From positions 1,612,001 through 1,676,000 of the forward strand of contig NZ_UZAC03000001.1 in the NCBI RefSeq assembly GCF_900538055.1: 64,000 bases of DNA. The letters are read 5' to 3'. Below the pieces are notes generated by a model, which searched no databases, was not told the origin of the DNA, and worked only from the letters and a program-made list of their open reading frames with translations. Source of the stretch: Pasteuria penetrans. Its GTDB lineage: Bacteria > Bacillota > Bacilli > Thermoactinomycetales > Thermoactinomycetaceae. This document shows, piece by piece, positions 5,863-61,069 of this stretch; position 1 is the stretch's first letter, and the number at the start of each line of letters is the position of its first letter. Both the position numbers and the translations under genes were made by a program.

Positions 5863-5910
5863 CATAAATGGAAAAAATTTATAATAATATAAAATAATGT
5901 GTATCAAGAA

Positions 5911-5943
5911 GGGTTGGCATCATCTCAGCCAACCCTCTACTAT
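5911..5943 (+). terminator. Hairpin after the mqnE-like pair
   Basis: GGGTTGGC pairs with GCCAACCC around a 9-base loop, 48 bases after the stop. The following bases (TCTACTATTAAA) are only moderately T-rich. Confidence 0.6.
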
Positions 5944-8269: not shown

Positions 8270-8812
8270 TGGACAGTTTCCTACATCGGGAAAACTGTGT
8301 ACCAAGCTAAGTGCGGGGAAGATAGAGGTAGGGTTAGGTCCTTTGGGACTGTAGGTATAATAGGTTCCAAATCGCTCTAGCGTGACTAACATTGGGAACA
8401 TAGGTCGTTTTTGGCGGCCAAGAGGGAAAAGTTGGGGCATAGCGTCCTATCAGGTGTCAATGTCGAGAAAATTAGCGCAATCGAATCCTTTGATGACGCA
8501 TTGAAATGCTTAGTTCATGTCGAAACCGGAGGGTATGGATTCCCATCCCAGGACTAAACTACAGAGGTAGACCTATCTACTCTACTATCTTAGTACATAC
8601 GATAGTGTATAGGCGAAACGGAACCCTACATAGGCTTTTCTGTGCAACTTGGGACACCTGTCGAAGCCAAAAGGGATATCGAGAGAATTCCTTATTGACT
8701 GCATTTTTTGTATCATATATTTATATTAGGATGGGAAGGAATGGATCATGCGAGTGTGTTAAATCTGACTGCGTGGGGGGCGGCTGAAATGCTGGCCCAC
8801 CTGATGAGATAG
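8270..8812 (+). mobile_element. Degenerate group II intron copy, no ORF
   Basis: Blocks match the better preserved introns at 21980-22700 and 59496-60907 in order: CTATCAGGTG near 8450, GCATTGAAATGCTTAGTTC and ATGTCGAAACC near 8500, GACCTATCTACT near 8570, and a 3' end with ATGCGAG, then GGCGGCTGAAATGCTGG near 8785 that corresponds to domains V and VI. Many substitutions have broken the domain V stem, so it is not expected to splice. Confidence 0.6.
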
Positions 8813-21849: not shown

Positions 21850-21979
21850 AAGACATACCCCACTATCAGGGAACCCATATAGTGGAGAACAGAAATGGAT
21901 GACAACGGGGACCGGTCTCAACACCCCTGTGTGATCCGGCCCCTCTCACTCCACATAAACAAATCAACGGTGCACAGCG

Positions 21980-22700
21980 TGTGTCCCATATCTATTAGGC
22001 CCCCCGTCATCATAGGTCCAGGTGGGTATAAATGGGAGCAGTCTAGGAAAAGGCGGGGTAGTACCCCTGTCAGGTGGAAATCAGGGAGATCAGCGAGAGC
22101 GAACCCTAGGAGGTAAGCATCGAAGGGCTCAGTCGATGTCGAAACAAGAGTATTCGGATCCTATCCTTGGAACAAAGCCATGAAGGGCGAACCACCTACT
22201 AGTCCTGGCGGCATCCGGCACACAGATGGAATAAACCTGATTTAGGGGTGGTCCTCATAGGGAACCACAGAATACTGTCGCACGGACACCTGGCCTTAGC
22301 CAGGTGTAAAAAATCTAAGACCACACCGAAACCCCCATAAACAGAGTCGGATCAACTCATAGTAGTGAAGAAACCCTTGCAATGGGGGGGGAGCGGAGGA
22401 ATTGAATGGTCCGCCTGGACCAGCCAATGTACAATCCGGAGCAAGGAGATGATCGTGGGGTAGACCCGATGGGTCTACCTGAAGAAGCACAATCTGAGAT
22501 AAGGGGATGATCGGAAAGTTGGACTAGGCAACATCAGATCGAAACCCGAATAGAATATAGCAAAGGAAGGTACAAAGAATGTGACACCAGACCGGGGTTC
22601 TGAGTGGGCAAAATCCTATGGGGCCATAAGAGCCACATAATGCGAGAGTAGTACGTGTGATTCTGTGAAAGGATTGACTAAGACGCCAGCCCTACTCGAC
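21980..22700 (+). mobile_element. ORF-less group II intron, nearly full length
   Basis: About 720 bases from a GTGTGTC 5' end to a CTACTCGAC 3' end, without an ORF. A domain V candidate of 34 bases (22630-22663) starts GAGCCACATAATGCGAGAG and ends ACGTGTGATTC. It has the AGC triad, but position 4 pairs C with A, so it may be inactive. Domain VI follows. The blocks CCTGTCAGGTGGAAATCAGG, GATCAGCGAGAGCGAACC and TCGATGTCGAAAC match the minus-strand copy at 59496-60907. It lies between nifS and AT-rich DNA and does not interrupt a recognisable gene. Boundaries are inferred from motif positions. Confidence 0.75.
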
Positions 22701-35044: not shown

Positions 35045-35232
35045 GGTAGAGAAAACGAGCCAACCAACACACCCTCTCGTCCTCCTTTACTCATCTATTC
35101 ATCTCTTAGCAACATCGCACTGTCTAGACACCTGGTCGACATGTTATCCATTCTTGACTTGTTCAACCAACCGCCCTTTGTTTGAGTTCTAACAAGAATT
35201 TTTTTGAACCGTTTTCATGTTTACTCCCCCCG
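35045..35232 (-). pseudogene. Second relic of the IS3-like OrfA gene
   Basis: Minus-strand frames read MKTVQK, LLELKQRAV, then VDQVSRQCDVAKR and KEDERVCWLARF with frameshifts, parallel to the relic at 15020-15485. It directly adjoins a group II intron fragment. Confidence 0.4.
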
Positions 35233-35234
35233 GT

Positions 35235-35439
35235 TTATCCCAACATAGTGTGCTGACATTGGTTTTAACATGGACTACGATTTTCGATACGTCATCGAAA
35301 TCATGCCTTGCCTTTTCCTAGACCGCTCACTACTTAGGGCTCTTTACCTCAGCAGCGCTAGGCGGTTTGAAACCTGTCCCTATCAGCCGGTTCCGAAGGG
35401 CCAGAAAAACTTCATCTCTTGTACAACTTCTTGACACAC
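35235..35439 (-). mobile_element. 5' fragment of the group II intron
   Basis: On the minus strand it begins GTGTGTCAAGAAGTTGTACA and follows domain I of the intron at 60907: GAACCGGCTGATAGGGACAG, CTGCTGAGG, GTGAGCGGTCTAGGAAAAGG. It stops before domain V. The DNA before its 5' end (GGTTGCGTCCGATCGCGTAC) is nearly the same as that before the 60907 copy, so both entered the same kind of target. Confidence 0.7.
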
Positions 35440-35558
35440 GTACGCGATCGGACGCAACCTATTTTTATTCGTAATTATCATAAAATTAATTAAAGTATTT
35501 TCGTTTTTATTCTTCCTAACCATCAATCTTAAGTGCTATCCTCTATAGACAATTTTAT

Positions 35559-45974: not shown

Positions 45975-46183
45975 TCCCACAAGAATACCTTGGAATACAG
46001 TGGGAGAGAATCCGAATCTAGGCAGATATAAACACAGAAACCTACCACGATGCATTTGATCTATCGAACCATGGTTCAGCCCTCACTCCTGAGACTGAAC
46101 CCCCAGGTCCGAAGTTTGGCCAAGAGCCCCAAACATTAAATCGAACTAGCACCCGAATAAGGAAGAATCCTATAGGGCAGTAA
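45975..46183 (+). pseudogene. Second fragment with YHxxF...SNHG motif
   Basis: EYLGIQWERIRI, a stop codon, then ADINTETYHDAFDLSNHG and SALTPETEPPGPKFGQEP. It aligns with the fragment at 29600-29766. Its end runs into group II intron DNA from about 46110, so the intron piece probably entered this gene. The family is not known. Confidence 0.4.
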
Positions 46184-46256
46184 GAGTCATATAATGCAAG
46201 GGTATTTATATATAATCCCATGAGCTGGATTGGCATTTCAGCCGACCCATCCCGAC
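46110..46256 (+). mobile_element. 3' fragment of a group II intron
   Basis: AATCCTATAGGGCAG, GAGTCATATAATGCAAGGGT (domain V region) and GGCATTTCAGCCGACCCATC ending in CCCGAC correspond to the 3' ends at 22700 and 49709. Stem pairs in domain V are largely lost. Confidence 0.6.
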
Positions 46257-46278: not shown

Positions 46279-46570
46279 TCACGAACAAAATCGATTACAA
46301 ACATAAGTGCTACCTACACCAGTAAGTCCCCCTACACCCATACCAACGTAATAAGCAAAGGGCTTCGTCACGGGATGGATCTGAGAGACCCCATAGTCAA
46401 CCCAGTAACTGCCTGCACCCGTGGCACCGGCGCAGGCATAATCACAAAAACCCTCGCGTCTAAACCGTCCCCCATTAATCTCACTAGAGTATTTGTAAAA
46501 ATCGTCAGTACCCCCTTCCTCCAATTCAACCATTGGGGGTGCCGAAAAATCCAAAGTTTGATATGGACCA
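46279..46570 (-). pseudogene. Secreted Cys-bracketed protein, C-terminal fragment
   Basis: From SAPPMVELEEGGTDD to the end it is over 70 percent identical by eye to the C-terminus of the secreted protein at 49732-50838: INGGRFRREGFCDYAC, a Gly-rich run, QIHPVTKPFAYYVGMG, then STYVCNRFCS. The N-terminal part with signal peptide and repeats is missing; the piece overlaps the 3' end of the membrane-protein gene in another frame. A deletion has fused membrane gene and secreted gene remains. Confidence 0.7.
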
Positions 46571-47530
46571 ATCATAGGTAAGACAACAAAGCGACAATAG
46601 CGTTGAAACACAGAGGATAGCCCAAAGTAAGCCATTTTTGATATCGCTATGGGACTGTAACACACACCCCCCCTGCGTATCATGATCATAATTGAATATT
46701 CCTAGATAATTGCAAGGAGATGCGCAAAATAAATCTTTTAAAAGATCGGAAATAGAATGAATTCTGGGGAAGGGTCTCAAGAAAGCACGGCGCTGACCTA
46801 AAAGAAGATGGGCCCAGGAAGGTAGGACACGGGAAAATCGAGCCCAGGTATACATAAAAATACATTGAAGTATCATATCCAAGTGAAGAGGATTGATACC
46901 AGAAACAAAATAGGGAACGAAATGAAACAAATGCAGGGGTGACAAATACCCTGATAGGCACATAATGATTTGTCTATTGACAAAATTCACATCGATGCCC
47001 TGCACCCCCAACCAGTGTTCCTCTTGCCAAATTCTCCCGCGTAAGGCCGCCATCCATCCTATTGTGCCTAGTGTCAACAACCATACGGAAGGAAAGATCC
47101 ATAGGAATACACATGTCATAACCAAAAAACATAACGCACCTCCCCATGAAACCAAGTACCACCCCCCCCTTCTCCATAAACTATGTTGTACTATAGCACG
47201 CTGACAATTTTCTCGGGCTGTGGACCACTGAATCATCTGTCTAGCCGCTACCTGGAGGAGGAATCCACCATTCTTTTTTCTTTCCTTTTTCAACCAAAGA
47301 ACCACCATAATAGAGAAATATATATAACAAAAGGAACTCAACATCAATGGTGTTCCATACTTTGACACGATCCGTCCCTTTTCTACCATGTAAAGTGACA
47401 TATGAAGAAAAAGTAAAAAATGAAAGAAAAAACTAATCCAACCCCAACGCGCCACAACAAATCGTATAGGGTAACAAGGATCTTTATCTCCGGGCGACCC
47501 AATCATTGAAGTCCACAATCGTTTCCCCAT
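46526..47530 (-). CDS. Polytopic membrane protein, LGQR family, copy 2
   Basis: 334 residues. Seven hydrophobic helices, closely related to the copy at 48239 and distantly to those at 35559, 57964 and 61070. RQMIQWSTARENCQRAIVQH is the amphipathic loop before helix 3, LRGRIWQEEHWLGVQGIDV follows helix 4, and HLLLGQRRAFLRPF follows helix 6. The last few codons (FFGTPNG) come from out-of-frame secreted-protein DNA, so the original C-terminus was lost by deletion. A start at 47530 (MGKRLWTSM) matches copy 3. No known family motif. Confidence 0.65.
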   Translation of the reverse strand: MGKRLWTSMIGSPGDKDPCYPIRFVVARWGWISFFFHFLLFLHMSLYMVEKGRIVSKYGTPLMLSSFCYIYFSIMVVLWLKKERKKNGGFLLQVAARQMIQWSTARENCQRAIVQHSLWRRGGWYLVSWGGALCFLVMTCVFLWIFPSVWLLTLGTIGWMAALRGRIWQEEHWLGVQGIDVNFVNRQIIMCLSGYLSPLHLFHFVPYFVSGINPLHLDMILQCIFMYTWARFSRVLPSWAHLLLGQRRAFLRPFPRIHSISDLLKDLFCASPCNYLGIFNYDHDTQGGCVLQSHSDIKNGLLWAILCVSTLLSLCCLTYDWSISNFGFFGTPNG

Positions 47531-47739: not shown

Positions 47740-48180
47740 TCCTATCCTAGCGACAACAACCCCCTAACTTTCCTTCTCCATCCCGATTCTCCAATTGGGG
47801 CTATGGGACCTTGGCAGTGTGCGGGTAAATCACAACCACTAGGGGAGCAAATCCATTTTGGGAATACCACCAGTAAGGCTAGCATCTCAGCCAACCCTCT
47901 CACAAAACCACACGCTTGATCTCCACAACCCACCACACCCAACAGGCCTCCCCGCCTTTTCCTTGACCAACTCACTACCAATGCTTCTTACACCAGCAGC
48001 GCAAGGTGGTTTAGAATCTTCCCCCTACCAGACCGATTCTGAAAAGGACACAAGACCCCAATCGGGGTCCTCCCTCATCTTCCATGCAACTTTGCAAAGC
48101 GTGCGATCCGACTCCGTTCACAACCGCAGCTTCGGTATAGTCTTAGCCCTTTCACCTGGCTAAGTCTAGGTGTCCATGCA
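47740..48180 (-). mobile_element. Scrambled group II intron remnants
   Basis: Pieces of the intron family on the minus strand: near 48110-48165 (CACGCTTTGCAAAGTTGC next to a target-like CGGAGTCGGATCGCACGC), near 47990-48040 (AAACCACCTTGCGCTGCTGG), and near 47875-47900 a domain VI-like GGTTGGCTGAGATGCTAGCC. Order is kept but the sequence is too decayed to fold. Confidence 0.45.
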
Positions 48181-48238
48181 ACAGCCTCTCGTGATTCCAA
48201 ACGACAATTTTTTAGCTCGGGTGAGTCAGGAGAGGGGA

Positions 48239-49246
48239 TCAGAAGAGAATCAATTTGATATTAACAATTTCACAGATAAGACCACAAAGTGAAAACAACG
48301 TTAAAACACCGAGAATAACCCAAAGTAAGCAATTTTTGGTACCACTACGGGACTGTAACACTCTCTTCCTCTGTGTATTATTATAATAATCAAATATTTC
48401 TAGATAATTGCAGGGAGGTGAGAAAATTAAATGCCTGAAAAAACCAGAAGTAGAACGAATGCTAAGGAAGGGCCTAAAGAAAGCACGGCGCTGGCCTAAG
48501 AGGAGATGAGCCCAGGAAGGTAAAACAGGGTAAAGCGAAAAACAAGAAAAAGAACTACCGGCGCGAAATATCATATCCGAATGAAGAGAAGGGTTTGAAC
48601 CAGCGCCAAAATGAGAAACGAAATGAAGCAAATGTAGGAATAACAAATACCCTAATAGACACATAATGATCCGTCTATTGACAAAACCCACATGAATGCC
48701 TTGCACCCTCAACCAGTGTTCTTCTTGCCAAATTCTCCCTCGTAAAGCCGCCATCCATCCTACTGTGCCTAGTGTCACCAACCATACGGAAGGAAAGGTC
48801 CATAGGGATACACATGTCATAACCAAAAACCATACCCCTCCTCCCCATGAAACCAAGTACCAAGCCCCCCTTCTCCATAAACTATGTTGTACTATAGCAC
48901 GCCGATAATTTTTACGGTTTGTGGACCACTGAATCATCTGTCTAGCAGCTACCTGGGCCCGGGAAAGGAATTCATTATTTTTTTCTTTTTTTATTTCCTT
49001 TTTTAACAAAAAAATAACCATAATAGAAAAACATATATAACCAATGGAACCTATCATCAATGGCATTCCATACTTTGGCAACGCCTGTACCCCTTCTACC
49101 ATGTAGAGTGACACAGAGAAGAAGAGTAAAAAATGAAAGAGAAAGCTAATCCAACCCCAACGCGCCACAACGAATCGTATAGGGTAACAAAGATCTGTAT
49201 CCCTAGGCGGCGGCCCATGCATTGAAGTATACAGCCATTTCTCCAT
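48239..49246 (-). CDS. Polytopic membrane protein, LGQR family, copy 3
   Basis: 335 residues with seven hydrophobic helices: two before an amphipathic loop (RQMIQWSTNRKNYRRAIVQH), two with LRGRIWQEEHWLRVQGIHV after the second, two ending at HLLLGQRRAFFRPF, and a last one (CLLWVILGVLTLFSLCGLI). Intact. It lies downstream of the secreted-protein gene at 49732-50838 on the same strand, with a group II intron piece between. The pairing is repeated at 61-63 kb. It might be an immunity, export or receptor protein for the secreted partner, but the sequence alone does not tell. Confidence 0.7.
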   Translation of the reverse strand: MEKWLYTSMHGPPPRDTDLCYPIRFVVARWGWISFLFHFLLFFSVSLYMVEGVQALPKYGMPLMIGSIGYICFSIMVIFLLKKEIKKEKNNEFLSRAQVAARQMIQWSTNRKNYRRAIVQHSLWRRGAWYLVSWGGGVWFLVMTCVSLWTFPSVWLVTLGTVGWMAALRGRIWQEEHWLRVQGIHVGFVNRRIIMCLLGYLLFLHLLHFVSHFGAGSNPSLHSDMIFRAGSSFSCFSLYPVLPSWAHLLLGQRRAFFRPFLSIRSTSGFFRHLIFSPPCNYLEIFDYYNNTQRKRVLQSRSGTKNCLLWVILGVLTLFSLCGLICEIVNIKLILF

Positions 49247-49379: not shown

Positions 49380-49709
49380 ACACTAGGGAGAAAATCCATT
49401 TAGGAATATCAAACTCACAATAGTGATGAAACCCCCGTAATAGGGATGTAGCAGGGGATTTGAATTACCCGGCTTGATCCAGCAGCCAACGCACAATCCA
49501 AATTGCGGAGAATCATCGTAAAATGAACCAAACATTAGATCGAAACTCGGACAGATACAGCAAAAAGGGGTACTGCGCCGCAAGGCCACAACATCAGACT
49601 GGCACCCGAATAGGGAAAAATCCTATGGGGCAGTGGGGGTCACATAATGTGACGGTATTTATTTATAGTTACATGAGCTGGATTGGCATTTCAGCCAACC
49701 CAGCTCGAC
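49380..49709 (+). mobile_element. 3' half of a group II intron
   Basis: Follows 22330-22700 in order: AATAGTGATGAAACCCC, ATCCAGCAGCCAACGCACAA, GATCGAAACTCGGACAGATA, AATCCTATGGGGCAG, GGGTCACATAATGTGACGGT and GGCATTTCAGCCAACCCAGC ending in CTCGAC. It ends 23 bases from the secreted-protein gene's stop codon, as does the piece at 46256. Confidence 0.65.
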
Positions 49710-49731
49710 AATTGTTATTTACGGATATCAT

Positions 49732-51394: not shown

Positions 51395-53470
51395 ATGAGC
51401 ATCCACACCCATAATACAACATTATCAGGAAAAATCAATATCCAAAAAGAAGAGTCATGGATAGCTAGAAATTCGATGAAGATAGGCGACCGGTCCATTG
51501 ACTCCCCGTATTGTGGAAAAACACTGAAAAGTACGTGTCCCTTCTGTCATAGCCATAATGTCTTACTAGATGAGAAACTGATTCTAACCGATAGGACCAT
51601 AATGGCAATAGCAAACGAAAAGCTGGCCCTAGCCAACGAGACAATGGCAATGGCAAACGAGAAGCTGGCCCTAGCCAACGAGACAATGGCAATGGCAAAC
51701 GAGAAGCTGGCCCTAGCCAACAAGGCAACGGCAATGGAAGCAGGGAATAAGGACACAAAATGGTCTGCGGTAGCCGGTGAGATTGGGAAATTACATAGTA
51801 CGAATCCGTCCCCTGCCCCCCAAGAAACGGAACCCAACCCACTGATCGGGGATTCTCCATCCATAACTTTGCGTGACGGAAAAGATAAAGGTCCAGGGAA
51901 TGCACGATCCGAAGGGGATGGATATCATCAATTGCACGATCCAAAAACTCGGGATCGATTCTTACGTGCTCAACGTTTTTTCGATGATCTCAAGGAGGGA
52001 ATTACCTCATGGGGTCCCAAGGAGTGGGAGGAATCTAGGCATCTGATTGAGAAACTGCTATTATTGTGTTGTCCATCGAACCACAAGGAAAAGACGAAGG
52101 ATTCCCTTCCCCTGGACGATATTACTAGCCTCATGTTCCATCACGACGGTGGTAGTATTTTGGTGCGGGCGCTGATTGGATTGTTAAAAAACGCATGGAT
52201 CCCAGAGATAGACCCTCTAACCGACCCAAAGAATTGGAAACCCGTTGTCGAGGACCTATGTAACTTACGCATGCGTGTAGATCGAACCCTCCATTGTCTG
52301 AAATATCCCCAGGATGAGGGGAATGGGGTCTATCATCGCGGATATAGCACACTGTTTGGGGAACTAGATCTAGAGGTTCCTAGGACAAGATGGGAATTTT
52401 CACCGTACTCGTTACCACGTTATCAGAGTGCAAAGAATACCCTCAAAGATTTCGTTTATCGTCTTTATCTTCCGGGCCTCTCCTTGCGAAAAATTAGTAA
52501 ACTATTGGAGGAAGGATTCAACCTTCGGACGCCCCCTGAAACGCTTTCGCAGTGGTTGCAACCTTATTACAACGATGCTATACAATATTTCGAAAGGGAT
52601 CTGAGCACGACAGTATATACAGCCATAGGTATGGATACCCTCTTTGTTCCCATTCGGGAGGAGGGTCGTTATGTTTCGAAGGCGATCGCAGTCAGCACGG
52701 GTATCACGGCGGAGGGGAGGCGGGATATAATAGGGATCACCCCCTCGCCTGATGAGAATGTGGAATCCTATGATCAGCATATAGGGAAACTAAAGGAACG
52801 GGGCCTGAATGTCAACGATATACGTATCGTTACCACAGATGGGCATAGGGCTTTTCCCTTAGTTGTACGCAAGCATTTTCCTCACCATACGGTTCACCAA
52901 CGATGTTACGTTCACGCGATTCGTAACATCATGAATGCAGCTCCTAAAAGTATGAAGAAGGAAATGGCTAAGGATGCTTCTTACGTCTTACGGTCTGGGG
53001 ATATGGGACAGGCACTAGAACGGTGGTCTGAGTGTGCAGGGAAGTATCGGTTTGGAAATAAGGCGACGTGCGAAGCATGGGAAAGGCTCAGTCCTAAAAA
53101 AATCTCCCTGAGCTTACAAGCGGCATCCATAACCCAAAATCCCATACTTCTGCCCTATATACTGTCCACGAACTACACGGAATCTCTGAATGCTTTGTTT
53201 CGTGAGAGAACGAATAGCAAAAAAGGTGGATTCGTTGGTCTTGAGGTAGCGATGAAGGAATTGATGCTTACCGCTTTCTATTGGGTGGGGAAACAAAAAG
53301 AAAACCCCAACCCATTGCCTGTCGAGGATCTTCTTTCGATCCCTGCTGACTACGAGTCCGAAATTTCGAACGGAGAACCTCTCCCCACCACGGCTTATGA
53401 CTTTCATCCCCTCTTATGCACGGAACAAGGGCAGGGTTGTATGGACGATGTCCATACCCTTGATTTCTAG
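51395..53470 (+). CDS. Large mutator-type transposase (691 aa) with repeat-bearing N-terminus
   Basis: The C-terminal 400 residues are a mutator/IS256-type DDE domain: GMDTLFVPIREEGRYVSKAI with the first Asp, VTTDGHRAFPLVVRKHFP with the second, HQRCYVHAIRNI, and NYTESLNALFRERT with the Glu. The first 200 residues are unusual: a Cx2C-like STCPFCHSHN, then three tandem copies of a 14-residue unit (ALANETMAMANEKL), then a Pro/Asp-rich linker. GAGGAGGG stands six bases before the ATG. IS256 transposases are usually about 400 residues, so this is a fusion or extended type. Intact. Confidence 0.85.
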   Translation: MSIHTHNTTLSGKINIQKEESWIARNSMKIGDRSIDSPYCGKTLKSTCPFCHSHNVLLDEKLILTDRTIMAIANEKLALANETMAMANEKLALANETMAMANEKLALANKATAMEAGNKDTKWSAVAGEIGKLHSTNPSPAPQETEPNPLIGDSPSITLRDGKDKGPGNARSEGDGYHQLHDPKTRDRFLRAQRFFDDLKEGITSWGPKEWEESRHLIEKLLLLCCPSNHKEKTKDSLPLDDITSLMFHHDGGSILVRALIGLLKNAWIPEIDPLTDPKNWKPVVEDLCNLRMRVDRTLHCLKYPQDEGNGVYHRGYSTLFGELDLEVPRTRWEFSPYSLPRYQSAKNTLKDFVYRLYLPGLSLRKISKLLEEGFNLRTPPETLSQWLQPYYNDAIQYFERDLSTTVYTAIGMDTLFVPIREEGRYVSKAIAVSTGITAEGRRDIIGITPSPDENVESYDQHIGKLKERGLNVNDIRIVTTDGHRAFPLVVRKHFPHHTVHQRCYVHAIRNIMNAAPKSMKKEMAKDASYVLRSGDMGQALERWSECAGKYRFGNKATCEAWERLSPKKISLSLQAASITQNPILLPYILSTNYTESLNALFRERTNSKKGGFVGLEVAMKELMLTAFYWVGKQKENPNPLPVEDLLSIPADYESEISNGEPLPTTAYDFHPLLCTEQGQGCMDDVHTLDF
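51601..51735 (+). repeat. 42-bp tandem repeats in the transposase gene
   Basis: About three copies of a 42-base unit (AATGGCAAACGAGAAGCTGG, then CCCTAGCCAACGAGACAATGGC) encode the 14-residue repeats. Copies are almost identical, so the array is young or kept uniform. Confidence 0.85.
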
Positions 53471-55152: not shown

Positions 55153-57348
55153 TTGTCCCTCATGCAGCTATGGGGAATACCTTGTACAGAAGCAGTCCGT
55201 GTCGTTGTCCTAAAAATACAAAGGATCCCCAGTCAATACAATCTGCCCTTGACAAGCGCCTATGCCTGGTTGAAAACGGAGGGTTATCAGGACGTACTGG
55301 ATGGTATAACTATGCCTAAGGATCAATCTATCGAAGAAACGGAAAAGACTACTGTATCTATTTTTCTAGATCCGGATCATGTGAAAAATTTGAAGGATGC
55401 GGTAGCAATAAGGGAGTTCAATCACAATATGCCAAAACCCGTCCTTTCACCCCCCGCTCATGGGATACCCGAAGTAAAGGTGGTAGGCTTGGTGGCAGCA
55501 CATCTCCCAGAAAAGTACGGACCTGTTGGGGAGAGGGTGTCGCTGACCATACTTGAATCTCGCGCAAAACAACCCTCACCTGAAACAAAATGTGCTGCCT
55601 GCGGGTGTTGCTTGGTAAAAACGGGATACTGGGTAAACAAAGCCGGTTTTCAGGATAAACCCCGAATTATAAAACACGGAATCATCAATGACTGGGTTTG
55701 TTTATCGATTATGCGTACACAGAGATGGGAGTGCCCGTTGTGCGGGAAAGACGTTACCCATGTGTATTCCATAATTGAACCTAAGAACACGTACACAAAG
55801 GCATGTAAAAAATCAGTTGCTGATATGGCAAGCGTTTCGACAGCAAAAGCTTCCGCAGGGTATCATGGGATTCCAGAGAAGACGGCTTATGGTATGTTAT
55901 TTGAGGGGGCCCTTCCTAAACAAGGACAGGAGCTAGAAGCGGAGGCCTTGAAAAGATACAAAAACCGGGAGGTCAGTCCAGAAAAGATGCAGGAGATTTT
56001 GCATTGGATTATCGAGACATGGAACAAAAATATAGTAAAATCAACAGATCTTGATAAAATTGATAGTTCGGACGAACTCCCGCTGTTCGGACGAACTCCC
56101 GCTGTTCGGACGAACTCCCGCTGTTCGGACGAACTCCCGCTGATGGATCCAAGTCAGAAAAATACCATTATGTACGATGGAGAAGGAAGGGGTGTAGTGT
56201 TATCCCCTCAGGAACTGAAACGGCTCCGTGCCCTGTGTACATATGGTATCGTTTGCATCGATGATACCGCCGTACGTAAAGGAAATGAGTATGTAACCCT
56301 CTTTCATGATCCAATTCATAAGACTGTATTGGCCGTGATCAAGGGGAGAAGTCAAGAAGAACTCGAAAAGAATATCAAGGAGTTCCACCCGGAATTGCTT
56401 GAGCTGAAACCAGCTGCCGTTATTATTGATCGCGCTAGGTCCTATCGTAATTTCATAGAAAAAAACTATTGTGATGCGGTGATCATCCATGACAGATTCC
56501 ATATTGTTATGAACATAAGGGATCATGCCCTGCATCCAATGGTAACGGGCTTTTTCAAAAATAAAAAATTCGTTGATTCTGTTGATCAAATGCTTCTGGA
56601 TTTGCTTCAAAAAAGCCTTTATAAGCAACTTACACCCCAGGATGAACTGGCACTGCAGGAGCTACTCAAATACTTTCCTGACCTCAAACTCCAATACGAG
56701 AAAATAGAGAAAACCCGCTCCCGTTTTCGGAAACAGTATGAACAATCTAAGCTATCTAGGGATGATGTTGATGAATGCATATCATATATTATCGATATGT
56801 ATGAAAACCTAATATCAGAATACAAAAATATGCCTAAAAACAAGAAAAAGAATTGTTTTTTAAAAATAAAGCAGGCAATCCGCGGGGCCTTGAAGAACCG
56901 TTATTGGGAAACCATGGATTCACAGGTGAGAGCCTTCATAAAAAGGGTTTTTGAGTATACTTCCTCTTGGTCCCATTTGGAGAAAGCTTATGGGTTTGTA
57001 ACTGCACTGGGGCATTGGTATGACAATGAGTTCCATACGATCCAGGAGGCTCGGGACGCCCTGCGTGCCCTGATTGAAGCAGGACTACAATCCCGGTGTG
57101 TGGGCATTCAAAACGCGGCAAAAAGCTTAGAATCCGGCGAGGATTATATCGCCAATTACCACCTCTGTAGAATGACCAATGGCGTTGCAGAGGGTAGAAA
57201 TTGTTTCGTCAAGTCCATCATGCGCCGATATTTCGGGATTAAGAATGATAAAAATTACAAAAATCTAGTGATTGTGTTATCCAACCGTCCTCGCACCCAA
57301 ACCGAGTACAAACCTCGATATTCCCGTGTTAGATCCTGGGCCTCATAA
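55153..57348 (+). CDS. ISL3-like transposase
   Basis: 731 codons from the first ATG after the in-frame stop. A zinc-finger-like region (CAACGCCLVKTGYW ... WECPLCGKDVTH) precedes the ISL3-type catalytic domain: IDDTAVRKGNEYVTLFHDP (Asp), VIIDRARSYRNFIEKN and VIIHDRFHIVMNIRDH (Asp), and TNGVAEGRNCFVKSIMRRYF (Glu) at the end, with helical insertions between. Usual ISL3 proteins have about 430 residues, so this one is much enlarged. A 19-bp repeat array inserts SDELPLFGRTPAVRTNSRC between finger and catalytic regions. Without the first frame it may be inactive. Confidence 0.8.
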   Translation: MSLMQLWGIPCTEAVRVVVLKIQRIPSQYNLPLTSAYAWLKTEGYQDVLDGITMPKDQSIEETEKTTVSIFLDPDHVKNLKDAVAIREFNHNMPKPVLSPPAHGIPEVKVVGLVAAHLPEKYGPVGERVSLTILESRAKQPSPETKCAACGCCLVKTGYWVNKAGFQDKPRIIKHGIINDWVCLSIMRTQRWECPLCGKDVTHVYSIIEPKNTYTKACKKSVADMASVSTAKASAGYHGIPEKTAYGMLFEGALPKQGQELEAEALKRYKNREVSPEKMQEILHWIIETWNKNIVKSTDLDKIDSSDELPLFGRTPAVRTNSRCSDELPLMDPSQKNTIMYDGEGRGVVLSPQELKRLRALCTYGIVCIDDTAVRKGNEYVTLFHDPIHKTVLAVIKGRSQEELEKNIKEFHPELLELKPAAVIIDRARSYRNFIEKNYCDAVIIHDRFHIVMNIRDHALHPMVTGFFKNKKFVDSVDQMLLDLLQKSLYKQLTPQDELALQELLKYFPDLKLQYEKIEKTRSRFRKQYEQSKLSRDDVDECISYIIDMYENLISEYKNMPKNKKKNCFLKIKQAIRGALKNRYWETMDSQVRAFIKRVFEYTSSWSHLEKAYGFVTALGHWYDNEFHTIQEARDALRALIEAGLQSRCVGIQNAAKSLESGEDYIANYHLCRMTNGVAEGRNCFVKSIMRRYFGIKNDKNYKNLVIVLSNRPRTQTEYKPRYSRVRSWAS
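56066..56141 (+). repeat. Four perfect 19-bp tandem repeats in the transposase gene
   Basis: GTTCGGACGAACTCCCGCT occurs four times head to tail. Three extra units add 57 bases, 19 codons, so the reading frame is kept, and each unit is read in a different phase. Perfect identity points to recent expansion. Confidence 0.95.
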
Positions 57349-59495: not shown

Positions 59496-60907
59496 GTCGA
59501 GTAGACCCGGCATTTCAGCCGAGTCCCTCACAGAACTGGACGTGATACTCTCGCATCATCCAGCTCTTCCCATCCCATCCCAATCTTCAGACCCTTTGGG
59601 TCCTACTTCGATTATGGGGATGTTGCTCCGAAGTTCCAGTGATCTCCTCCAGTGGATTTCCACTAAAGTTGTCGTTTGATCTCCTCCAGCGGATCTCCCG
59701 CTAAAGTTCTCATCTAACTGTCCTCCGCAGGATGAGTCAGCCCCTTCGCTCCACTTCCATTACAGAAGCTTCCTCACTACTATGAGCTGATCCGACTTCG
59801 TGCACGGAACCTCAGTTGTCCTCGGTCTTTCCATCTGGCGGGAGCCAGACGCCGTACGACGATCTCTCAAGTTCCGATCAAGAGCCTAAATCGGGTTCGT
59901 CGAGTAGACCTGGCATTTCAGCCGAGTCCCTCACAGATCCGGACATGATACTCTCCCATCATCCGGCTCTTCTCATCCCATCCCAATCTTCAGACCCTTT
60001 AGGTCCTACTTCGATTATGGGGATGTTGCTCCGAGGTTCCAGTGACCTCCTATAGTGGATCTCCACTAAAGTTGTCGTTTGATCTCCTCCAGCGGATCTC
60101 CCGCTAAAGTTCTCTTCTAACTGTCCTCCGCAGGATGAGTCAGCCCCTTCGCTCCACTTCCATTACAGAAGCTTCCTCACTACTATGAGCTGATCCGACT
60201 TCGTGCACGGGACCTCGGTTTGTCCTCGGTCTTTATACATCTGGCGACAGCCAGACGCCGTACGACGATCTCTCAAGTTCCGATCAAGAGCCTACATCGG
60301 GTTCATCCCGCCTGAACACCGCATGCCACCGGGGCAGTAGATAGGTCATCCCCCACGGTTCATCCCGACGTTCGGGACCCACATCGGTTTTGACATGGAC
60401 TATACCTTTCGATGCGTCTTCGGCTGGTTCGCTTTCGCTGATCTCCCCGATTCCCACCTGACAGGGTCATGCCCTGCCTTTTCCCAGATCGCTCACCACC
60501 GGGGTGTTTCCACACCAGCAGCACTAGGCGGTTTGTAACCTGCTACCTATCAGCCGGTTACGAAGGGCCGAGCATCCTTCATCTCTTGAACGACTTCTTG
60601 ACACACATCCCGCCTATACACCGCATGCCACCAGGGCAGTAGATAGGTCATCCCCCACGGTTCATCCCGACGTTAGGACCCCACATCGGTTTTGACATGA
60701 ACTAGCCTTTTCGATGCGTCTTCGAACGGTTCGCTTTCGCTGATCTCCCCGATTCCCACCTGATAGGGTCATGCCCTGCCTTTTCCTAGATCGCTCACAA
60801 CCAGGGCACTTTACCCCAGCAGCACTAGGCAGTTTGTAACCTGCTACCTATCAGCCGGTTACGAAGGGCCGAGCAACCTTCATCTCTTGAACGACTTCTT
60901 GACACAC
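59496..60907 (-). mobile_element. ORF-less group II intron with internal tandem duplications
   Basis: On the minus strand it begins GTGTGTCAAGAAGTCGTTCA (60907) and ends at CTACTCGAC (59496). The 5' domain I segment of about 302 bases occurs twice in tandem (60606-60907 and 60304-60605), and the segment holding the 3' domains of about 403 bases also occurs twice (59899-60301 and 59496-59898). Each 3' copy has its own domain V and VI. No reverse transcriptase is encoded. It is better preserved than the other copies. The DNA before the 5' end is the same as before 35439. Confidence 0.8.
59533..59566 (-). ncRNA. Group II intron domain V
   Basis: 34 bases: GAGCTGGATGATGCGAGAGT then ATCACGTCCAGTTC on the minus strand. 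G1-C34, A2-U33, G3-U32, C4-G31 and the following pairs all form, with the catalytic AGC triad, a GAGA tetraloop and the two-base bulge region. Domain VI (GGGACTCGGCTGAAATGCCG) follows. A second domain V lies at 59936-59969. Confidence 0.85.
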
Positions 60908-61069
60908 GTATGCGATCAGACGCAACCAAGAGTGTTACGTTCGGCGGTAGGCTCAACTGAAATGCTGGGCCAACTTAATGATACTTTAGGGATACAAATC
61001 ATCGAATCATCACTCAATTCAATTAGATAAAAATACATGGTAATAATAAAACTATAATATAGGCAATAC

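Follow-up and report, generated by a model that had tools for sequence, protein, structure and literature searches.

Nested ORF-less group II introns in the genome of Pasteuria penetrans and their probable movement by reverse transcriptases of related introns

Results and discussion

Group II intron sequence in the window

The stretch of Pasteuria penetrans DNA analysed here (the window; 64,000 nucleotides, C1:1612001-1676000 of a genome of 2,519,642 bases) carries group II intron sequence at all seven loci where the initial annotation had placed it (8270, 21980, 35235, 46110, 47740, 49380 and 59496), as judged by BLASTN with five intron references; Table 1 lists the pieces found. The F2b reference was cut from the window itself (60606-59899) and the other four from elsewhere in the genome, and the E value quoted for 60605 comes from the F2a reference, which was taken from outside the window. 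With the same references, dinucleotide-shuffled windows gave no match at E<=0.01 in 20 of 20 cases. The loci had been assigned to one intron family; what the window holds are members of two families, F1 and F2, that are related to each other (about 73% identity over positions 37-475), mostly in the form of fragments.

Only one of the seven loci is near-complete, an intron inside an intron (a twintron) at 60907-59496 on the minus strand, previously entered as 59496. Five others (8425, 35439, 46166, 48198 and 49408) are decayed pieces; the end of the last of these, the 49408-49711 relic, is a diverged duplicate of the relic at 46166. Two more starting points had to be moved, from 8270 to 8425, and from 47740 to a piece that runs from 48198 to 47872. 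Rfam on its own finds two D1 matches (90.6 and 87.0 bits) and two D5-D6 matches (60.3 and 51.0 bits) at 59496-60881, single D1 matches in two of the decayed pieces (Table 1), and no match at 8425, 46166 and 49408. The absence of a reverse transcriptase (RT) from all of the loci was correctly noted, as none of the 27 RVT_1 matches in the genome falls inside the window.

The window has some further features of note. A weak, isolated D6-like hairpin at 5904-5938 (E=0.002), absent from the earlier list, could be an intron relic or else a terminator. Two paralogous ORFs of 334-335 aa (46526-47530 and 48239-49246), without an NCBIfam match, belong to a local duplication that has intron relics between its copies. 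There are also transposase ORFs of the Mutator family (51395-53470) and the ISL3 family (55153-57348), and close to them lie perfect inverted repeats, 298 and 137 nt long.

Table 1. Intron pieces and adjoining features in the window, with the best BLASTN E value of each locus and, in brackets, the position to which it belongs.
Feature	Position	Strand	Best E	Remarks
Decayed F2-like relic	8425..8795	+	2e-11 (8425)	pieces of D1, later core and D5-D6; 72-75% identity
Dispersed repeat, ~50 nt	21989..22040			abuts the truncated intron; not intron D1
ORF-less F1 intron, 5'-truncated	22036..22700	+	0 (22036)	F1 positions 111-764; D5-D6 at 22628-22700
F2 5' fragment	35226..35439	-	5e-38 (35438)	positions 1-255 with internal deletion; 85% identity; RF01999 (D1) at 35306, 64.6 bits
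F1 3' relic (D4-D5)	46166..46206	+	8e-5 (46166)	degenerate D6 behind, by eye
Rearranged F1 relic	47872..48198	-	1.5e-18 (48198)	order 330-421, 54-134, D5/D6; RF01999 (D1) at 47937, 52.3 bits
Decayed F1, 3' half	49408..49711	+	1.4e-12 (49412)	matched to 49659; domain VI to 49711 by eye
Outer F2 intron, 3' part	59496..59898	-		positions 302-end; D5-D6 at 59496-59568; RF00029 60.3 bits
Inner complete ORF-less F2b	59899..60606	-	0 (60605)	708 nt, GTGTG...CTACTCGAC; Rfam D1 and D5-D6 matches
EBS1 of inner intron, GUCCCGA	60372..60378	-		6/6 pairs with exon end CGGGAT in outer intron
Outer F2 intron, 5' part	60607..60907	-		positions 1-301; 95% identity to F2a (painting with intron references)

The truncated copy at 22036-22700

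This copy is 84% identical over 667 columns to an intact F1 copy at C1:308756, and lacks the first 110 nt of domain I together with the 5' splice site. It had been placed at 21980-22700: the 3' end at 22700, which reads CTACTCGAC, is right, while the 5' start is not, and the real extent is 22036-22700. Starts at 21979 and 21929 were both rejected as chance occurrences of GTGTG; the 108 nt before 22036 (from the GTGTG at 21929) resemble the 5' ends of F1, F2a and F2b no better than shuffles do (z 0.1, 0.6 and 1.1). The D5-D6 region folds poorly (-11.8 kcal/mol), and Rfam RF00029 scores it at 34.7 bits against a cut-off of 40; a covariance-model scan, which had been proposed as a check, supports the family and leaves this particular copy under the cut-off. 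The copy is dead. The dispersed repeat that abuts it matches 13 other genomic places at 80-90%, and at C1:3444-3493 and C1:1257436-1257485 a repeat of this type stands directly 5' of an F2a copy that is cut at its position 88, corresponding to the target at site 87.

The twintron at 60907-59496

Here a complete F2b intron splits another F2 intron into two complementary parts, an arrangement also found at other loci, and five further full-length copies of the inner F2b, at 99%, are present elsewhere in the genome. The EBS1 of the outer intron forms only 2 of 6 pairs with its own exon, a point against the choice of target by EBS1. Nearly the same 20 nt (ggttgcgtc.gatcgc.tac) precede two F2 copies of the window, at 60908-60930 and 35440-35460, and the EBS1 of the outer intron is unmatched to this shared flank; the flank may represent a target repeat followed by a later change of EBS1, or a duplication of intron and flank together.

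Number and state of the introns in the genome

In the whole genome (2.52 Mb) there are 117 D5-D6 matches, 90 of them over the Rfam cut-off (RF00029); a repeat of the search gave 103 rather than 117, with fewer candidates scored in the repeat. The same kind of match occurs 0-12 times per genome in 30 relatives, and F2b DNA left a weak trace in one of 22 other genomes of the family. According to the accessible parts of two papers, most bacteria have three or fewer group II introns and ORF-less introns are rare in bacteria (PMC4424553, PMC8919778). The available text of a 2022 survey gives 101 as the maximum per genome, for Arthrospira platensis, obtained with a different method, which is said to overlook the outer introns of twintrons (PMC8919778); because of this difference in method we claim no record for the P. 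penetrans count. Searches of the open-licence literature for group II introns with Pasteuria penetrans found none, the listed hits for 'pasteuria' being, to judge by their titles and opening lines, on other subjects and many of them on Clostridium pasteurianum, and the word 'intron' is absent from the main text of a paper on five Pasteuria ramosa genomes (PMC13233619). One Spo0A match and 123 collagen-repeat matches were found in the genome.

Painting with the five references covered 80 stretches around the listed matches, and pieces shorter than 25 nt were dropped before counting. The intron DNA recognised in the painted stretches amounts to 92,951 bases, or 3.7% of the genome. Complete introns make up 51 of the 312 parsed pieces, the others being fragments, and 44 of these 51 are ORF-less. 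Intact copies begin with GTGTG or GTGCG and end with CTACTCGAC, in agreement with the group II ends 5' GUGYG and 3' AY; their D5-D6 regions fold into both hairpins with a bulged A in F1, F1_RT, F2_RT and F2a, and into a weaker D5 in F2b. Thirteen aligned F1 copies have one ORF-less domain IV stretch in common (a piece before it is missing from L102, and L098 and L105 are divergent behind it), which would follow from a single loss of the ORF and a subsequent spread of the shortened intron.

RT-bearing relatives

Since ORF-less introns need an enzyme supplied in trans, an RT-bearing relative had been suspected elsewhere in the genome, and two were indeed found: complete introns of 1871 nt (F1_RT) and 1873 nt (F2_RT), whose RT contains YVDD and is joined to a maturase domain. 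Over their first 464-524 nt the ORF-less references share 92-94% identity with these introns, and in D5-D6 78-95%. F1 matches F1_RT at 93.7% across 524 columns and at 95% in the final 83; F2a and F2b reach 92-94% over 464-467 columns of F2_RT, and only 78-82% in D5-D6. Domain IV of F2a and F2b has no match to the RT introns, and this, with the low D5-D6 identity, weakens the assignment of a particular RT to them. Three F2_RT copies stand at 100% identity.

Nine of the genome's RVT_1 matches are full-length or nearly so and without a stop, and 16 contain a stop or cover at most 136 of 205 positions. In RT proteins of 423 and 441 aa, Pfam finds RVT_1, GIIM and a marginal RdRP_1, and no endonuclease family. 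Group IIC introns have a class C RT and insert behind terminators; the best solved-structure match of the RT is the GsI-IIC RT, over 289 residues, a match that leaves the class undecided. The closest plasmid relatives are Sinorhizobium meliloti ltrA genes, at 54% identity. A related RT with a similar tandem habit is seen on the S. meliloti plasmid pMl3 (CP140952.1 133276-139481), where two RT-bearing copies of 1865 nt each stand head to tail, 1861 nt apart, and are 99.9% identical over 1865 nt. A further RVT_1 match at C1:1779205-1779816, in a 596-aa open frame, scores 29 bits, far below the intron RTs, and is perhaps an RT of another kind.

EBS1 and the choice of target

We placed EBS1 at domain I positions 228-235 after seeing its fit to the F2a and F2b sites: GGCACUA of F2a fits UAGUGCU at site 87, and GUCCCG of F2b fits CGGGAU at site 301. 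In the same position, GGAACC of F1_RT fits GGUUCU at the domain V/VI junction, and GUAUCG of F2_RT fits CGAUAY, which occurs at dispersed sites outside recognised intron sequence. Another candidate for EBS1, the loop GGGAACCAC, which matches the intron's own domain V strand, was dropped; positions 228-235 explain the different exons of F1, F2a and F2b, and pair with GGUUCU as well. In minimum-energy folds EBS1 lies in a hairpin loop in F1 and is paired in F2b, the latter speaking against this placement.

The pairing of EBS1 with the 5' exon that characterises group II introns was scored in the 59 copies (of the 312 parsed pieces) that have both a 5' end and EBS1. Each copy forms on average 5.37 of 6 pairs with its own exon, compared with 3.81 for shuffled exons, and none of 20,000 shuffles was as high. 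Leaving out four tandem junctions gives 5.58 against 3.89 (n=55). When, again without these junctions, only distinct combinations of EBS1 and exon are counted (n=24), the mean is 5.12 against 3.83, with 0 of 20,000 shuffles as high; the pairing is then perfect in 11 combinations and limited to four pairs or fewer in five. At random positions, 6/6 pairs with EBS1 occur in 0.36% of cases. As a check on the register, 141 offsets around it were scored. The chosen one came out best over the full set of 24 combinations (5.12; next 3.62; median 2.5), and again over the 18 left when the six that had served to read it were set aside (4.83; next 3.67).

Introns inside introns

The copies mainly sit inside each other, a fact that the initial annotation overlooked. 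Among 67 intron 5' ends found by strict motifs, a search that misses diverged copies, 40 are located within another intron or immediately adjoin one. Site 301 accounts for 15 of these 40, site 87 for 11 and a site in the F1 RT gene for five; four are at D5/D6 (one of them 1 nt past the junction), four head to tail, and one elsewhere in D1. Four recurrent insertion places thus take most of the nested ends, and three of these lie in the ribozyme core.

The largest nest, at C1:1851374-1858163, consists of ten complete introns in four levels with no base left over, and can be written as F2a(1-301) { F2b(1-87) {F2a F2a F2a} F2b(88-302) { F2b(1-87) {F2a F2a} F2b(88-708) } F2b(303-708), F2b(1-87) {F2a} F2b(88-708) } F2a(302-667). 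Five levels are reached at C1:637876-641750, F1_RT { F2a { F2b {F2a} { F2b {F2a} } } }, where the outermost F1_RT is 5'-truncated and ~88% identical to the reference. At L188 (C1:1818264-1820709), an F2a copy in site 87 of another is split by ~1.87 kb of other DNA between positions 57 and 390.

Recombination, or the assembly of near-identical repeats, could account for part of the nests and tandems. We hold it to be improbable that they are mostly products of homologous recombination or misassembly with few true insertions behind them, even though the inner copies are 98-100% identical to the references, the tandem junctions have no matching exon, some loci were duplicated together with their flanks, and the genome assembly is in 4 contigs. 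The brackets close exactly, with the host intron resuming at the very next base, and they do so in different hosts at a small number of shared sites; EBS1 predicts the insertion site, also in the held-out combinations; and the five-level locus repeats the nesting pattern at another place. In four kinds of host intron (F2b, F2_RT, F2a and F1), site 87 carries insertions with one and the same EBS1, which argues for separate insertions rather than the copying of one composite. Not all copies are independent, since segmental duplication links some of the loci (C1:5630 and C1:1259622, for example).

At loci with a domain V upstream we also considered circular permutation, and rejected it: wherever both parts are present, the domain VI that closes the bracket lies behind the inner intron, and D5-D6 was not found before D1 within one element. 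The introns had been described as lying between genes, and this agrees with the 17 outermost complete insertions with distinct flanks, where joining the flanks rebuilt no clearly interrupted sense gene. Joined frames of more than 300 codons arose in three of the 17; two of them run in the sense direction, where only 7 codons precede the insertion, and the third is antisense. Interrupted genes as a reason for the retention of the introns were accordingly set aside, with no clear case among these 17.

Tandem rows and strings of domain VI

L164 contains four head-to-tail junctions, which pair poorly in place (2, 2, 2 and 4 of 6); the 5'-most copy of each row touches a matching exon, and the later copies do not. 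This pattern is predicted by insertion at the IBS1-G junction; unequal recombination would also give it.

Extra domain VI units directly behind an intron end were seen at 17 loci, including two pairs with alike flanks. The longest string, five extra units at C1:1418642-1418821, stands beside a complete F1_RT that starts at a D5/D6 junction. We read these strings as the probable remains of nests from which recombination has removed the intron bodies; they may also have arisen by slippage of the 36-nt unit. In Clostridium tetani, domain V/VI repeats serve alternative 3' splice choice, and a similar role would suit strings of as many as six domain VI units, all of them ending in CCCUACUCGAC and having the bulged A of the F1_RT fold. 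We nonetheless consider such a role very improbable here, because the repeated unit is domain VI alone and not V-VI, and because at four loci the 5' end of an intron directly follows the domain V 3' strand of another (at one of them 1 nt further on). The 17 outermost insertions also offer no clear host genes, although the longest string lies outside those 17.

Origin of the ORF-less copies

Taken together, the findings make it likely, in our view, that the ORF-less F1 and F2 introns multiplied by being moved in trans by the RT/maturases that complete introns of both families encode, and that several EBS1 variants came to target the introns themselves. The sequences, the nests and the pairing are observed directly, and from them we infer retrohoming in trans and the order of events. 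The target would be set by the pairing of EBS1, in domain I, with the final 6-7 nt of the 5' exon. For F1 this would be the domain V/VI junction, between GUGGUUCU and GUG, for F2a the domain I site between CUAGUGCU and GCU (site 87), for F2b the other domain I site, between GGCGGGAU and GAACC (site 301), and for further F2 variants the site in the F1 RT gene. Because the EBS1 variants match the introns themselves, new copies would bring new targets. Since F2a and F2b insert before a G at these sites and every intron here starts with G, the junction between IBS1 and intron would still be a legal target, making head-to-tail rows possible. Copies in the D5/D6 site would leave a second domain VI behind, and recombination between the long intron bodies would then leave strings of domain VI.

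Our judgement is evenly divided on a stronger version of this reading, by which the introns form a self-feeding community: the EBS1 of F1, F2a and F2b would match core sites that both families carry in some form, and each insertion would create new targets for its own kind and for the others without ever saturating them, and would regenerate the IBS1-G junction, so that rows and nests could grow without limit and be trimmed only by recombination, the domain VI strings being a record of nesting depth.

Splicing and present-day activity we can likewise only infer, and the ORF-less copies might be fossils of a burst, moved once by the RTs and with nothing mobile or spliced now. We regard this as possible, if rather unlikely: it fits the low share of complete introns among the parsed pieces, the truncation or decay of six of the seven window loci and the many defective RVT_1 matches, whereas recent movement is suggested by the F2_RT copies at 100% identity and by 11 F2a copies that are identical over 667 nt, all of them at site 87 or in tandem there.

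A small genome with more than 100 domain V-VI matches offers, in one cell, a series from the single insertion to the five-level nest, in which target choice can be read from EBS1. The evolution of intron targets, a possible role of RTs shared in trans in driving bursts and a possible inside-out splicing of nested introns become testable questions. Annotation pipelines can undercount such elements; one of them is stated, in the available text of its description, to miss outer twintron introns (PMC8919778).

Comparison with known systems

A close parallel for the nests is found in the archaeon Methanosarcina acetivorans, where, according to the accessible text of its description, group II introns are nested by homing into one another, repeatedly and site-specifically, outside genes, with a perpetual target and in balance with recombinational deletion (PMC4424553; cited in PMC2882425). 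Up to five nested introns are reported there, compared with ten in one nest here (PMC4424553). Unlike what that text describes, P. penetrans has more than 100 D5-D6 matches, complete copies that are mostly ORF-less, and targets in D1, at D5/D6 and in an RT gene. In the open-licence literature, as far as its accessible text goes, we found no bacterial nests of comparable size, no set of several EBS1 types aimed at the ribozyme core and no domain VI strings, which does not prove their absence.

Thermosynechococcus elongatus (TeI3/TeI4) reportedly has 28 group II introns. As in P. penetrans, the available parts of the source describe ORF-less introns moved in trans by the RT of a relative, EBS families with different targets, and insertion into introns (PMC2882425). 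One family inserts there between start codons of the RT gene, giving two-intron twintrons, and the text mentions that the RT has an En domain (PMC2882425). In contrast to this description, the introns studied here combine several types of EBS1 with four main target sites and are nested to a depth of up to five levels, and Pfam finds no endonuclease domain in their RTs. Trichodesmium erythraeum has a bacterial twintron too, with the inner intron in domain I; in the portion of the report available it is a single one, within a gene, with an RT gene in both introns, and is spliced in vivo (PMC4649490).

In circularly permuted group II ribozymes, as partly accessible in their description, domain V can stand 5' of domain I (PMC8637638). 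The upstream domain V in P. penetrans is instead that of the outer intron, whose domain VI lies behind the inner intron where both are present.

En-less introns of the RmInt1 kind belong to class D. An RT/maturase without an endonuclease domain is a feature that the P. penetrans introns share with the En-less introns of Sinorhizobium, as these appear in the accessible text (PMC8914252). In the RT described here Pfam finds no D/En domain, and a place in class D is a possible one, the S. meliloti ltrA hits being perhaps RmInt1. Nesting and ORF-less introns mobilised in trans are already known, and the introns of P. penetrans are an extreme bacterial variant.
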